Assembly: GCF_008831285.2 (NCBI RefSeq)
Contig: NC_045146.1
Span: forward strand, 5,964,972-6,028,971
DNA: 64,000 bases
Direction: 5' to 3'
Source of the DNA: Nymphaea colorata
Lineage: Eukaryota; Streptophyta; Magnoliopsida; Nymphaeales; Nymphaeaceae
Shown piece by piece: positions 1 to 53,937 of this stretch (its first letter is position 1; each line of letters opens with the position of its first letter). Below the pieces are notes generated by a model. That model saw only the letters and a program-made list of their open reading frames with translations. It did not search any database and was not told the origin of the DNA. The position numbers were made by a program, and so were the translations under genes.

Positions 1-10302
<10,302 letters not shown>

Positions 10303-14170: not shown

Positions 14171-14669
14171 CACACACACTCTCTCTCTCATTTTATATTT
14201 CTAGAATTTTGTTTTGATTGACCTGAACTTTGTTCTTTTTGTGTAATTGAAAATGAAAAGTTTTTTTTATTTTTATTTGGTTTTGCCTATTTGTATAAGA
14301 TGAAAGTAATCCCTCTTTTTTCATCTAAAAGATTATTATTGTGATAATCCGTGTTTAGATAAGTTTTTCATGTCTAATCGGGACATAAGAATGACCATTT
14401 TGGTGCAGCATCGTAGTGCTACTTGTAAAACATTCTCTATGATGTTTTTTTCATGTGAATCTGACTGGAAAAAGAATTTCTTTGGTGATATAAACATTGG
14501 CAAGAATACATTTTTTCTTATAAAATAAAAAATTGTTCAGGTGGATAGAATTGATGGGATAAAAAATAGCCATCTTCCGTGTATGTGGAAGATGAATAAC
14601 AAGAACTAGAAAGCTTGCAGCAAGTTGAAAAATTAAGGGATCACTACAACAAATCGAGGGTTCACCGAT

Positions 14670-14875
14670 GGCTGAAAAACATCGGTAAAAGTTTTACTGA
14701 CATTGTAGGTGGTCGACGGTGAAGAAAATGTTGGTGAAAACTATTACCTACATTACAGCCCATGCGTCGGTGTAGAATTTTGCACCGATGCATCATGTGC
14801 ATAGGTAAATAAAATGATTACCAACGTCCGAGGACATCGGTAATAATACTTGTACCGGCACATGATAGCCATTGA
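14670..14875. repeat. CACTA left subterminal repeats
   Basis: Several copies of the word CATCGGTAA, its complement TTACCGATG or close variants fall here, for example near 14663, 14680, 14798 and 14833. They alternate in orientation, as expected for subterminal repeats of CACTA elements. Confidence 0.75.
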
Positions 14876-15167
14876 TAAAACTTTTTATCGACATACAGAT
14901 GGACGTTGGTATATATTAATCGACACAATTTCATGCATCAATGAAGATTTGATATTTTTTTTTGTAATTAACGAACGACATAATTAGTTCAGAAAATCAG
15001 TGAAGATCTATAGTGATGTTATCTATTGACATGAAGAAACATTAGTTACAAACAAAAAAAAGTATTGCACTCAATCTACCAAATAAAAACTGGTACTAAA
15101 AAACAGGAATTTCATGTAACCATGCGGACCAAAAGAAATTATTGACTTGCCTGATAGAAGTGCCAAA

Positions 15168-15806
15168 CCTTGTGCCGAATCTACCATCAATATATGCTAC
15201 AGAGTAGATGATCAGTCCCTCCTTGTGTGTAAAACCAATTCAAAAATTCCATTGTACAAGATCAAGTCAGAAATAGATTAGAACATAAAGAAAAGAAAAA
15301 ATGAACTTTCATGAAATGGACCAAATTAACATCTTCAAAAAAGGCAACCTTTTGCCACTCTGCAAAGTACCCATTAACATGAAAGCTAGGACCTTTTGGT
15401 TGAATAATTTGCAATGGTTTTACATCACTTTGGTCAACAGCTCCTCTGGTTTTTCCCTAGGGATACAATTTCTTAAAGGATCAGCTGGAGGCAAAGGAAC
15501 AAGTTTGCAGTCACCAAACTCAATAACCTCCATATTTGCCATGTCAACAAGTGCGTGCATGCCTTCAACTAGGCATACATTTCCATTCTCCATTGGGCAG
15601 TCACTCTTAGTTCTGAAGAAAATAAGTGGTTTGCAAGCCGGCGGCTAGGACATCTGCTTCACTATGGTAACCAGCATACTTGCAAAAGATTGTCACAAAT
15701 ACAAATAAGATAAAATCCACAAGAGAAAATGACTTGGTCAAAGCAAAGTAAGCAAGTATCTAGGATCATACCATGGGTCCACCATAACAAGATCCATGTC
15801 ATGCAT
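15168..15806 (-). pseudogene. Captured copper amine oxidase gene fragment
   Basis: Three blocks on the minus strand match plant copper amine oxidase in collinear order. The first is at 15806-15772 (DMDLVMVDPW). The second is at 15678-15349 (AGYHSEAD, then [34 protein letters not shown], and [10 protein letters not shown]). The third is at 15251-15168 (WNF, a stop, IGFTHKEGLIIYSVAY). Intron-like gaps with donor-like GT separate the blocks, so the copy came from genomic DNA and not mRNA. It has frameshifts near 15630 and 15460 and an Arg-to-TGA stop after WNF. Intact enzymes oxidise polyamines, producing hydrogen peroxide. The copy lacks the region expected to hold the topaquinone tyrosine and copper ligands, so it cannot be active. 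Confidence 0.85.
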
Positions 15807-16139
15807 ATGATAAATTGTGTAAGCTTAAAATAGAGCAAGCATCGTTTACAAAACCAAACCAACCTACAAACTGGAATGCAAAAGTCCAAAAATGGCAATG
15901 AAATTTTGAAGCAAAGGACCTAAAATCATTACCCTACAACAATATCATAACCTAAAATCATTCACAAATAGAACAAAACTTAACACTAAGTTCAAGCAAC
16001 CTACTTGTTTATCATTTCAACATCAAATATTGATAAAAAAGACCTTAAATCAACCAAAAACTTCGGTAAACACCAGTATGAAGAAGATGGATGAGAAAGG
16101 AAAAGAGAGAAGAAGAAGAAGAATGGAGAAGAAGGGCTC

Positions 16140-16710
16140 AAGCAGAGTTATACACTCAGGGAAGCCTTTACCAATGCATGGGAGGCGTCGGTAATGGCCA
16201 TATTTAAAAACATCAGTAAAATTTGTGTGGTAACTTTTACCAACGTTCGATGTGTGTCCATAAAAATGACTTCAGTGACACACTTACAAACGTCTGTAAT
16301 TCTTTGTCAGAAAGCGACTACATTGATGCGAGCATGACCACGTGTTTGTAAAACTAACTTCTTTTTTATCGCCGCCTGCAAAACAAATGTCAGTAAAAGG
16401 GTTTTTACCGATGTTCACTTATGAAAATCAGTAAAAGTAATATGTATAGCGATGTTTGGAGCTGGACATCGGTAAAAGCTCAACTTTAATAACATCGGAC
16501 AATGCTACTTTTCACTAATGTCTTGTTCTCGATGTCGTTAAAGGAACATGTTTGGCGGGCAGGTTGGACGTGGGTAAAAGGCCAACTTTAATGACATTCT
16601 AAAAGCACGTGTCGAGAAAGACTACTTTTACAAGTAATAATTAATCTACAATGGCATTTAAAGTCGGATGTCGGTAAAAACAGCCTTTCACTGATGTCCT
16701 TTTTCCCCAT
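16140..16710. repeat. CACTA right subterminal repeats
   Basis: Copies of the same word family as at the left end occur near 16170-16190 (GGCGTCGGTAATGG), 16410 (TTTTTACCGATGTTC), 16465 (GGACATCGGTAAAAG) and 16667 (GATGTCGGTAAAAAC), with several mutated copies between. Sharing with the left end supports one element. Confidence 0.75.
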
Positions 16711-16776
16711 GGGTCAGTGAATCTGTCTTTTTTCATAGTGGATAGTCAGCTCTACCCTATCTGTATACAATACAAA

Positions 16777-16778
<2 letters not shown>

Positions 16779-16860
<82 letters not shown>
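16779..16860. repeat. (TA)n(GA)n compound microsatellite
   Basis: A TA run passes directly into a GA run just outside the right end of the CACTA element. Confidence 0.95.
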
Positions 16861-48733: not shown

Positions 48734-51700
48734 CTAAATTGAAGTGGGAAGAGGGAGCGCTGCAGCATCCTGAATCATCTGAAGGTGATGGTCGTGCTGC
48801 CTGTAAAGCCAAATGGGTCTGCCATATGTGCCCTGGATTGGCCTTGCATTGAACGGATATGGCTGCCAAATTAATTCAGAACCCAGCCCATCAAATTAAT
48901 TAAGACCGAACACTTGCATGTATGTATATATATATATAATCAAACGCAAAACCGACATAGTATGAAACGCCTGCAAGTGCATCGTAAGCAAGAAAATTGG
49001 AGTTAATTCCAGAAGTTTTGTGTCTCAAACACTTAAAAGTGTCTGGAGTTGGCAATGGGAAAAATAATATCGAGTGGGAACCCCACAGAGGTGGAGAACA
49101 GCTAGAAGAAGCAGTATATCCTTTTCTTTGATTCGTTTAGGTAGATTGCCTACAGTGTGTGTGATGAGGTCATTGCGACAAAAATCCACAACTGAGATGG
49201 GCTCGCCCTCTACCTAATTTAACTTGGTCCGCAACATGGACCGCACACTCACGTTCTCCACAGCCTTGTCCGTGCAGATTTAGAGGTGTGCATGCAAAAA
49301 ATATGCACTAAATGGGGATGGAGGCATTTTTATCTTTTTTTTAATAAAGAAAGTGGACATTTCAGGTATTTTTTAATTTTAAAAATCCCTTTTTACCATT
49401 TTAAAAAGTTTTTTTATTATTTTAATAAGGATATTTTGGTCACTGTCACCCATGCAAACTTTTTTCGTGCAGACGCCTGTGCAGGAAACTAGCTTCATTT
49501 TCAATGTACCAATCATAGGGTGCACTCACATGCATGCAAATAAACTTGTTTCTTGTAAGTTATATGATTTGCTTTGGGTGGTTTAGGCTCTACCACACCA
49601 CATTTTGACTTGCATGTAGTCTTTTTTGCATCACTAAGGATTATTAGCATAAGAATTCAAAATGAAAACTGACCACCTATCCGCCCTGCCTAGACTCTTG
49701 CATCAACCCTTTCAAAAACTTACTGACCACCTATCCGCCTGCCCAGACTGTTGCATAAAACTGATAGTTGAAGTAAATCTACAAAAGAGTAGTCACCTTA
49801 TGGAGGGCATTTCTTAAGGCATCCACTTGACTCCGAGTCACGGTCTTGACCTGCCGACAATTAAAAAGAAAAGAATTTGTCGTCATGTGTTTGTGTTTTT
49901 GTAGGAAAATATGTAAGAGTACAGCACGTGGAACATTATTTCGGCAAAAAAAACTAATTGGGCACAACATGCAGCCAAAGGAAAGGAAGTTTGTGCAAGC
50001 AGCACCATTTCCCACCAAATTGATTATGTAAGCCAGGGATTAGATTTGGATTGGATATATTCTTTAATTATATTCAATTTTTTGAATATTCACATATTTA
50101 GATTCAAATACAAAGAAAGAAAAGTCATATTTGAATTCGAATTTGAAATCCAAATGTACAATCCGAATCCGAATTTTGAACGAAATTTTACCAATTTTCA
50201 AAATGCAACAGCATTAAATACATGATATTTGTCTAAAAGTGAATCCTATCAGAATCTGAATCAGATCAAATGCATATATTAAATCTGAACCCGATCCGAT
50301 TTCTTAATCGGATATTAATTTTTTTTTCCATATCCGAATTTTTTGGATCGGTTCGGCCGAACATCTATTCAAATCAGATATGTTGACATCCCTAAATATT
50401 ATGTGAGTTTTTCAAATGAATCAGTATCAAATATTGAGCTAGATTCATGAAACAGGTTCATCAATATACCTTAATATTTAGGATAGATTCATACAAAACT
50501 CACATAATATTTCTCATAACAATGGACCCCTACATGGATCTTGCTAGTTTTATAGAACAAGTGTAGATCCCGTACAAAGAAAGCAGCACTAGTGGTTGCA
50601 ATATATATTAATTTGCCAATCTGGTCTGATTAACTGGATTCCCCTACAGTCTAAGACTTCAATTTGGTGCCTATTTTTCCTCAAAATCCAAGTGAAAACT
50701 CCACAAAAAAAAAAAAAATCCCGTGTCAAATACATGCAAGATTTGTATCCCAACCTGGTTCTAGAATATTAATCAATTTTGCAAGTGAACCCTCACATAG
50801 GTCTGCATATGTAATTTAGCCATAATAATGCACTGTCAAACTCATAGTTACCAGTCCATCAATTTCCTTTCTATACATGTTTTTCATCTTTCCTGAACCT
50901 TTCATATTTTTGAAGAGTGTTTGATAGGAATAACCAATCTTTTTTTCTTTTGAAAGACATGCTCCTACATCATATCACTCAAGAACATGTATCATGTTCT
51001 TTCAAATCAAGATTCCCTCTGATGTGATATTGCTTTCTCACCTCCATTTCAAGCTTTGTTTCCTATATATTCTTGTGTTTTAATTAATAACTATAGGAGA
51101 ACTTGCTTCGTATTTGGTGGGCCAGAATACAAGGCCACGCCATGTTCTACTGCTATTCCCTCTCAGAGCGGCCCAGGTCTGCCTGTGAATCTCACACAAA
51201 AGGTGATGTTTCGGTTTCGATCTCTTGTTTGTATTGGAGGTTTGTTCTTGTCCAATATATAATATATGTTGTCATCATTTTGGAATAATTAGAGGAGGCA
51301 TTTGGGTACATATCCACAAATGAGAGAATTAGCATAAATTTGAGGTACCTCTTCCATAACCGTCCAGATTACACCTTCGTCGCAGGCAGGGGTGGTAAGG
51401 GAACCATTGTACCTGTAGTAGTCCCCGTGTCCAATCTCCACATCCCGAGGGTTAACGACTCCCACGTCCACCCATTTCTCTTCTACATTTTTCAAAAGGT
51501 GTTTGATTCCATCCATTATCTGCAATCCATTGAACACGAAACAAACAAATGAAAAAGGAGAGCCTATTGTTGATAGAGTAGAAAGGTTCCTGTTGGGCTG
51601 TTTGGTGACAATAATACTATGTTCCTATTTTATGTATTTACCCAATTAAGGTTGGAACAGATTCACGAGACACTTGCAATCCTATCCTAATATTTGGGAC

Positions 51701-53937
51701 AAATAAATAAGACAATAACTTTAAGGCCGGGGCCGAGTTAAAACTTCTAAATTTTGATATGGGTTCAAATATCATTTTTTTTATATAGAACAAGTAAAAT
51801 TTTCTAAAATTTGGATGTAAACTTTAATTTAATTTAATTTTTTTTTCAAGAGAGTTTGGGCCCCTTCGGCCACTGGGTAACCTATTGCTAAACGACTCCA
51901 TTGGGACTTCAACTCCAGACAAAGAAGATGTTCGTATCTATGAGCTTGGGGTTAGGGTGGAACCCTTTTCGGCAAATCGAATCCGGCTTTCCAAAATAAG
52001 GAAATTATCAATTACCTTTTAAAAAAAAGAAAATTACTGTCAAACAAATTAACCTTGCTAAGAAAGTAGTCAGGACGGTGGCCAATTTGGTAGAGAATTC
52101 CAATCACCGCTACCTTCCCTTCTTCACTCACGTGGACCAAGTGCAGCTCTAAGTCATAGCTACAAAAGAAGAAGAAGAAGAGTCGTAAATTTTAACTGAG
52201 AAAAATAGTAAACCAAGATGAATATTTTTATGAAGCGGCTTACATATCTTACTGAAAGAACAATAACCTGCTGATTGCTCAAGTTTCAAATTAAAATCCA
52301 CTCTTAAGTCTAAAGCTGCTTACTGGGTGAGATATATATTCCTAAATTTAAGCAGCTTCTTATCAAACATCAAGTATATTGGAATCAAAATCAGAATTCA
52401 TTCTTTACTGCATGTTCAATTGGATTTTTTTTTTTTTTGTGTGCAGGATGTTAGTATTGCTAAATTCCCCCTTTGTGTGTTAAACTAGAAGAACATATCC
52501 AAAATTTTATTTGTATTATTATCATTTTTTAATTGTATTTGAATGAATATTTTACAAACATCTGAGCTTCTCAGACTGCTTTATAGGGAGAAAAAGAGAG
52601 AGAGCCCACAAAATGAAAATTCATTGATGAAAATAAAGTTCAGGTGGCAATCTGTCACCAAGGAAAATCAAGTTCGGGTGGCAAGCTCTTACCAAGAAAC
52701 AAAAGCAACATAGAGAGAGAGAGAGAGAGGGAGGGAGAGAGAGGGAGCAGACCGATTGCCATTAATGTGGTGCTCGGAATGGGAGTGCCAGTGACACTGT
52801 ACCAAGGTATAGAAAATGCCCCCAACGTAGAAGCCACCAGCATCCTGATTTGTCCACTGTACCTGTAGCATATATAAGCTGATCCAGTTCAGATTATATA
52901 TATATATATATATATGGAGAGAGAGAGAGAGAGATGCAAACTCCAAAGGAGGTTATAAGATGCAAAAAACCAAAGGCACTTAAAGCATACATGAGAGACA
53001 CATCGGAAGCAACATCTGAGTCTCTTAGCATTCGAAAGCGGTCCACATGTGACATGACATTGTTTATAGAGAAATGAGCATCCAAGCTACACTATCGTCT
53101 TTTTGGGTAAGCAAATGTTAACAACCCATCACCCAAAAAATACCCAAAAGTCCCCTATTCCCCCCCCTTGTCTCTAAGTTCAGGGGAGTAGCACCTACAT
53201 AAATGGAACATGTAATGCACCTTTTATGCACTCTTCTGCACAAACAAACATGTAATGCACCTTTTATGCACTCTTCTACACAAACAGCTACTAAGCCCCT
53301 TGAGGAACTTCTATTCTCTTTTTAATTTGATACAGGTTTGACCTTTGATCCCATAAGAGAATGACAGTTGAAAATTGGGACTGCTAACACTAAGCCCACA
53401 TATAATTCGATCATAGTTAAGAAGTTTTGGGCTACTTTGTGGAACACATATTTGGCCATGGCAAGATGGAAAGGAGAGGAATTATATATAGGAATCGAGT
53501 AGATTTTGTGAGTCCCCACCGCAATATCATGGCCTCTGTTTCTGAGAATGGCGTGGGCTGGACGGTGGGTTAGATCCAGTGGACGTACGCTGCCAGGATG
53601 AGGCGGGCGGTTGAGGTCAATAGGAGATTGCCTTTGCCCATTACCGCAGATCTCCCAAAGCCCATTGGGTTCAAGCCTCCACCAGTTTTCTGGCCCCCTG
53701 GGGCTCCCTTCTATATAGTCGAACTCCGTCTCCTCATCTGCACATGCATATAAATATATATATCATGCAAACAACACAAAATTAATAGGGAAACCAGATA
53801 CCAAAGGAGAGGGATAAAGAGAGAGAGAGAGAGTCACCATCAGCCTTGACACAGGGAAGAAGGAACAAGGAGGTTAGAGTGATGATGAGGAGCAGAAGAG
53901 AGACTGCGCAGTGACGACCACTAATATCGTTACCCAT
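48734..53937 (-). CDS. Secreted alpha carbonic anhydrase
   Basis: Zinc enzyme interconverting CO2 and bicarbonate, predicted to enter the secretory pathway. Seven exons, 5' to 3': 53937-53838, 53737-53520, 52862-52753, 52159-52054, 51519-51349, 49850-49797, 48862-48734, totalling 888 nt for 295 residues plus TAG. All splice sites are GT-AG and in phase. A hydrophobic signal peptide covers about residues 12-30, with likely cleavage after VKA. Zinc ligands are H130 and H132 (QCHWH) and H149 (ELHLVH). The proton-shuttle histidine aligns with H103. The catalytic threonine lies in GSLTTPAC (220-221), and C64 and C224 form the expected disulphide pair. The C-terminus has NARPIQ and GRPIWLYR. All catalytic residues are present, so it is likely active. 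The paralogue number is not assignable. Confidence 0.93.
50034..50394. mobile_element. hAT-type MITE (older copy) in carbonic anhydrase intron 5
   Basis: The right end reads TTGACATCCCTA at 50383-50394, the complement of TAGGGATGTCAA. The left end is worn (CAGGGATTAGATTTGG). The body shares with the copy at 54505-54957 the words AAAGAAAAGTCATATTTGAA, TTTTCAAAAT, ATATTTGTCTAAAA and TTAATCGGATATTAATTTTT. Target duplications are not recognisable. It lies between exons at 51349 and 49850. Confidence 0.7.
51725..51850 (-). repeat. Copy of the CAGGGG-family repeat body
   Basis: In inverted orientation it shares CTTCTAAATTTTGA and TATATAGAACAAGTAAAAT with the copies at 20278 and 25165. It sits in a carbonic anhydrase intron between exons 52054 and 51519. 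Confidence 0.45.
53207..53286. repeat. Two tandem 40-bp units
   Basis: AACATGTAATGCACCTTTTA plus TGCACTCTTCTGCACAAAC occurs twice with one visible base change (G to A). It lies in carbonic anhydrase intron 2. Confidence 0.9.

Follow-up and report, generated by a model that had tools for sequence, protein, structure and literature searches.

A probable Pack-CACTA element with a decayed copper amine oxidase gene segment, and its relatives, in the water lily Nymphaea colorata

Members of the Tpn1 family of Japanese morning glory are reportedly En/Spm-related elements that capture host genes, as the title of a 2004 report by Kawasaki and Nitasaka has it, and on the strength of that title they resemble the element described here in both respects. 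Captured gene fragments with their introns are already known in CACTA elements (PMC1947982, PMC8903248, PMC8978399), in agreement with what a sequence-only reading of the present locus had said of gene-carrying CACTA elements. Tgm-Express1 of soybean (Zabala and Vodkin 2007, PMC1947982) is a 5.7-kb CACTA element that holds fragments of five genes, introns included, resides in intron 2 of a gene and is spliced into the transcripts of that gene. The Pack-CACTA elements treated among the Pack-TYPE elements of rice and maize (Gisby and Catoni 2022, PMC8903248) are characterized in that paper as non-autonomous elements that enclose host coding DNA and combine conserved ends with a variable interior; gene uptake is described there, and in a 2026 review (PMC13317346), as a fusion of neighbouring insertions. 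Animal Pack-TIRs arise via gap filling according to PMC8277862, which reports template switching and breakpoint microhomology of 1-36 bp (median 2 bp), present at one breakpoint or more in 190 Pack-TIRs (67.6%).

In a 64-kb stretch of Nymphaea colorata DNA (C9:5964972-6028971, referred to as the window), a 2,099-bp CACTA-type element was found with a degraded piece of a copper amine oxidase (CuAO) gene in minus-strand orientation (Table 1). It is best explained as a Pack-CACTA, i.e. a non-autonomous CACTA element of the En/Spm superfamily holding some 0.66 kb of a host CuAO gene, and we put the probability of this reading at roughly 0.92. The characters listed above for Pack-TYPE elements are found here as well; in contrast to the neighbour fusions of rice and maize, the right junction falls on a 12-nt identity between donor and backbone, and a single gene occurs in two arrangements. 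Compared with Tgm-Express1, whose captured introns it parallels, the element is shorter (2.1 kb), carries one identified gene, lies outside any recognised gene and has both donor splice acceptors changed. Microhomology at the capture breakpoint is a likeness to the animal Pack-TIRs, although here it occurs in a plant element and is 12-13 nt long beside the 2-bp median. The phenomenon is thus known in plants, and the N. colorata element is a clear new example of it. It belongs to a CACTA family that carries host genes in a flowering plant of an early-diverging lineage, where donor, gene-free sister copies and product can all be compared within one genome. The capture itself may, as the sequence-only reading proposed, be specific to this lineage. 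A literature search for amine oxidase together with CACTA gene capture returned no paper, which does not establish that the case is unpublished.

Table 1. Features of the element (window positions) and places of further CuAO-bearing copies. Donor positions such as 4769 or 6031 follow the numbering of the 10-kb C3 donor stretch (L190).
Feature	Position	Strand	Basis or remark
Target-site duplication GAT, left copy	14639..14641	.	sequence
Whole CACTA element, 2,099 bp	14642..16740	.	termini, motif counts, flanked search
Left terminal and subterminal arm, common to many genomic copies	14642..14963	+	genome searches
Left interior, minority type	14964..15120 (end approximate)	+	as far as 15090-15096 also in copies C6:5.125M, C6:5.137M and C12:9.09M
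CuAO donor scrap	15137..15167	-	97% to C3:956568-956598 (donor 4769-4799)
CuAO exon block WNF*IGFTHKEGLIIYSVAYIDG...	15151..15251	-	TGA stop at 15242-15240 against donor CGA; donor alignment halts at 15181
Main captured CuAO segment	15181..15800	-	88% to C3:957073-957694 (donor 5274-5895), exons and introns
Captured intron	15252..15348	-	donor acceptor AG is AA here
CuAO exon block YAGYHSEAD...GYFAEWQK	15349..15678	-	2-bp insertion 15450-15451; 1-bp deletions beside 15629 and 15647
Captured intron	15679..15771	-	donor acceptor AG is AA here; an AG persists one base further
CuAO exon block HDMDLVMVDP (exon end)	15772..15803	-	donor alignment finishes at 15800
Right capture junction, 12-nt identity CAAGATCCATGT	15788..15799	.	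window, donor and two non-CuAO copies (C6:13.05M, C3:5.65M) identical
Right interior	15801..15905	+	common to non-CuAO copies C3:5.648M, C6:13.056M, C9:22.98M and C10:15.97M
Core common to many family copies	15906..16175	+	genome searches
Right subterminal arm with TAGTG end; 12-bp motif present 8 times	16151..16740	+	genome search, motif count
Target-site duplication GAT, right copy	16741..16743	.	sequence
CuAO copy A	C2:27.777M
CuAO copy B	C2:10.30M
CuAO copy C	C9:17.34M
CuAO copy D	C14:4.947M
CuAO copy E	C2:18.997M
CuAO copy F	C7:20.833M		CuAO sequence, no recognised arms

The element started with CACTACAACAAATC at 14642 and ended with ...TTTTTTCATAGTG at 16740, the terminal inverted repeat being short and imperfect outside CACTA. 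In the 64-kb window, pairs of CACTAC and ATAGTG with a 3-bp repeat were seen once against 0.485 expected, and CACTA and TAGTG pairs 16 times against 8.87 expected. By themselves, the termini and the 3-bp repeat are near chance; the borders were fixed by searching the genome (407.8 Mb, 783 contigs) with the element plus 300-bp flanks, because alignments queried with the element alone cannot reveal borders. This query matched 44 regions, the window's own excluded and the CuAO donor counted if matched. Eight matches in other family regions began at 14640-14648 and none before 14640. On the right, 17 of the 19 matches extending beyond 16725 finished at 16733-16744; of the two exceptions, one extended to 16823 and one lay entirely within 16781-16823, a TA repeat. 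The motif ACATCGGTAAAA, with up to two mismatches, occurred twice in the left arm, eight times in the right arm, once in the 1,200-bp interior and five times in the remaining 61.9 kb, so that both arms together (899 nt) held 10 copies where 0.16 were expected. CACTA/TAGTG termini, a 3-bp duplication and repeated subterminal motifs in both arms are accordingly all present, as in CACTA (En/Spm) elements. The sequence-only reading had delimited the element in the same way, with matching ends, GAT on both sides and subterminal repeats at both ends; all of this was recovered, and family homology stops at the borders that it had drawn. No transposase was detected in the element by a Pfam scan of seven minus-strand and three plus-strand ORFs, and the longest stop-to-stop ORF entirely within it measured 119 aa, which fits non-autonomous status. 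When terminal patterns were searched in public collections, an 18-mer led to one bacterial contig and a 14-mer to at least 120 viral stretches; both results were taken as chance.

Translated singly, the CuAO ORFs gave weak scores against Pfam (0.12 and 0.014), and a single CuAO ORF returned nothing relevant among solved structures. Once the blocks were joined by X at the frame breaks, PF01179 (2e-11) and PF02728 (2.4e-7) were both matched above the Pfam cut-offs, phenylethylamine oxidase structures were matched at 1.5e-15, and the NCBIfam primary-amine oxidase model was matched at 1e-30 (106.8 bits, short of the 651 that the model sets for full length). The exons contain two 1-bp deletions, one 2-bp insertion and one TGA stop. 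These frameshifts and the stop, the changed splice acceptors and a match to the enzyme domain at positions 1-46 of 407 only all speak against a functional CuAO. The fragment very probably yields no enzyme, and the element very probably has no function today; a decayed passenger without function is the simplest reading.

PF01179 was matched 12 times in the genome, on C3, C7 and C13, and the donor was identified as the C3 gene. The 88% match of the main segment runs across two introns, with 39 differences among 428 exon sites and 27 among 189 intron sites; the donor itself reads open through the captured exons, and both of its introns are bordered by GT-AG. Because the match spans introns, capture took place at the DNA level. 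The scrap at 15137-15167 corresponds to donor sequence some 475 bp past the main segment, and the intervening stretch is therefore absent from the window copy. DNA-level capture with introns had been proposed from the sequence, and a donor with matching exons and introns in the same genome had been named beforehand as its test; the C3 gene is that donor. The similarity to copper amine oxidases likewise held once the blocks were joined as above. The three collinear blocks on which the proposal was built are present, but the count was incomplete, the scrap being a fourth piece of donor sequence.

Genome searches returned at least 59 matches to the right arm, at least 48 to the left arm and at least 45 to the interior, the window included and the donor among the interior matches. 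After merging, 45 regions were obtained, namely the donor, the window and 43 others. The element is one of several dozen related genomic places. The closest left-arm relative was 78% identical (C9:14525952-14526282). Both ends with a matched 3-bp repeat were present in 2 of 44 family regions, and others keep one good end; many of the regions tested are degraded, and several loci, including the window's own, were cut before an end. This low number and the imperfect terminal repeat weigh somewhat against the Pack-CACTA reading. Several sister copies start with CACTACAAAA and several finish with GTAGTG. Searching with the donor segment revealed six CuAO-bearing places besides donor and window (copies A-F). 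Related copies thus exist with and without the insert, and a lack of other copies sharing the termini had been named as a refutation of the capture. A host-gene interior with a genomic source, together with kin that have the same ends and different interiors, agrees with a Pack-CACTA.

Copies A-E have left-arm and right-side family sequence, the right match reaching only 16385 in D and 16631 in E. Their donor sequence begins at 4856-4861, and that of all copies A-F finishes at 6030-6031. A, B and C have in common an internal jump from donor position ~5140 to ~5590. The window holds donor 4769-4799 and 5274-5895, whereas A and B hold 4860-5140 and 5591-6031, neither arrangement being nested in the other. 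To the right of donor 6031, copies A, B, D, E and F have an additional common stretch that the donor lacks there and that is doubled in B. Other host genes are represented in the family as well. The interior of the C12:9.09M copy (L181) encodes a peptide of the Ndr family (PF03096, 4.3e-6), and that of the C7:3.29M copy (L174) the ARM part of F-box protein At5g52880 (PF24104, 8.6e-7), both above the Pfam cut-offs; two further peptides matched nothing. By eye, L165 and L171 partly resemble the C7:3.29M copy. One gene is carried in two arrangements and pieces of other host genes lie in sister copies, both of which go beyond the sequence-only reading.

At the right capture junction, the C6:13.05M and C3:5.65M copies continue after the 12-nt identity with the same backbone that the window has from 15801 onwards. 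When 1.8 kb of either sister backbone was compared with 1.4 kb of the donor, this stretch was the only run of 12 nt in common. With each backbone the run is in fact 13 nt long, a length that random pairings reached in 1 and in 2 cases out of 400,000. As the only shared stretch of this length falls exactly at the junction, it points to a join guided by microhomology. Diverged forms of the identity occur in two further non-CuAO copies. Between the identity and the resumed backbone the window has about nine extra bases (15800-15808), perhaps filler or a later insertion. On the left the transition is less sharp: similarity to the backbone fades past 15096 and similarity to the donor begins at 15137. 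The minority left interior was found in three other regions and the right interior type in eight others, four of which matched most of the probe. The two interiors occur together nowhere in the 44 regions except in the window, the right sides of the two C6 minority-left copies lying outside this comparison.

Two histories can be proposed for the CuAO-bearing copies, and from the sequences compared they would be near even. A single capture, with an even chance of being correct, would have brought at least donor 4769-6031 (about 1.26 kb) into an ancestral element, and the window and copies A-E would represent different internal deletions of it. It is consistent with the derivation of all CuAO-bearing copies from one gene segment and with the internal gaps relative to the donor, which are plain in both arrangements. 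A left-arm tree of 21 sequences, from which the two C6 copies having the window's left-interior type were left out, placed the window in a group with copies D and B, both CuAO-bearing (ultrafast bootstrap 84), and by eye the left interior of A-D opens with a short signature resembling the window type. Against a single capture stand the lack of nesting between the two donor arrangements and the little sign of a pseudogene history shared after capture. The latter was judged from 301 sites compared among donor, window, A and B, with 10 sites showing conflicting or multiple changes set aside and with D, E and F excluded, D being too short. Of the changes that set the donor apart from these three copies, 6 were intronic and 1 exonic; those confined to a single copy numbered 16 and 46, respectively (Fisher p = 0.0034). 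This intron-biased donor branch therefore resembles the evolution of a constrained gene.

The same bias favours the second history, in which elements of the family would have acquired overlapping portions of one CuAO gene on two occasions, around the same time; we regard it as just short of an even chance. Donor limits and backbone junctions differ between the two arrangements. A tree built from the donor, the window and copies A-C was nearly a star: branch lengths were similar (0.081 for the window, 0.104 for A, 0.098 for both B and C), and the A+B+C stem was near zero at 0.005 (bootstrap 68). Such star-like divergence, over the 301 sites compared, would equally fit one capture followed by immediate radiation, and the left-arm tree favours one origin. 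The right-arm trees were star-like and did not place the window. In its fullest form, namely that one CACTA family took the same host segment twice, nearly simultaneously, by microhomology-guided template switching, the idea is put forward tentatively, the odds being somewhat against it. If this double uptake were true, the CuAO locus would be a capture hot spot and would offer a natural replicate, with the mechanism readable from the junctions.

As to the route of uptake, a broken or excised element may have been repaired by copying from the CuAO locus, with template switching at short identical stretches. Alternatively, two neighbouring elements may have been joined across CuAO DNA via a microhomology deletion. 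The product would then have been moved in trans by the transposase of a relative to its present site, where it would have decayed. The window copy is a mosaic of two interior types, as might result if two neighbouring elements had fused. The 12-nt identity at the junction would agree with template switching and also with a microhomology deletion that followed fusion. A fusion might have left a remnant match in the donor stretch, and none besides CuAO was seen at E 1e-3 when the 10-kb stretch was compared with five aligned copies. Template switching and neighbour fusion both fit, and we choose neither.

Concerning the source of transposase, PF02992 (Transposase_21-type) was matched 154 times in the genome. 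Four of 71 family places lay within 10 kb of such a match against 0.51 expected (p = 0.0035); 127 of the 150 matches listed were entered, 23 second pieces being omitted and four matches unlisted, and C4, C10 and C13 were each taken as 22 Mb long. The four transposase-adjacent loci, C2:22.606M, C5:9.556M, C7:11.782M and C11:2.819M, are candidate autonomous or once-autonomous relatives. The geometry is the same in all four pairs: the transposase is situated inward of the right arm, on the strand equivalent to the minus strand of the window, which is the CuAO strand. RNA driven from the right end of the element would therefore be sense for CuAO.

This orientation bears on the proposal that the element is a functional regulator that targets the CuAO gene with small RNAs, antisense or hairpin-derived. 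In some plants, gene-carrying elements can make such small RNAs, and 88% identity to the donor over 620 bp would permit some small-RNA matches. An antisense relationship had been suggested from the sequence; the CuAO piece is indeed on the minus strand, yet the neighbouring transposase shares its strand in four of four pairs, which weakens the suggestion, and we consider such a regulator highly improbable. That the CuAO piece is an ordinary pseudogene merely lying between two unrelated CACTA-like ends draws on the chance frequency of such ends with a 3-bp repeat, but it is scarcely credible and already contradicted by the flanked search, in which family homology halts at the element ends, by sister copies with the same arms and other interiors, and by five further copies that bear the same gene.

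The Pack-CACTA lies about 4.4 kb upstream of the likely start (~10,257) of a gene on the minus strand of the window (605-~10260), whose exons encode an SNF2-type remodelling ATPase (SNF2-rel_dom 2.4e-17, Helicase_C 2.3e-13). We tentatively take this gene to be INO80, and the start motif at ~10,257 is likewise presumed; the domains confirmed in it are SNF2 and Helicase_C. Of four INO80-like ORFs, two gave these domain matches; the remaining pair matched nothing in Pfam, and one of that pair nothing among solved structures. Pieces of a carbonic anhydrase gene were observed further along the minus strand of the window at 51289-53762, with PF00194 matched at 2.1e-11 (51292-51624) and, below the cut-off, at 8.5e-4 (53325-53762).
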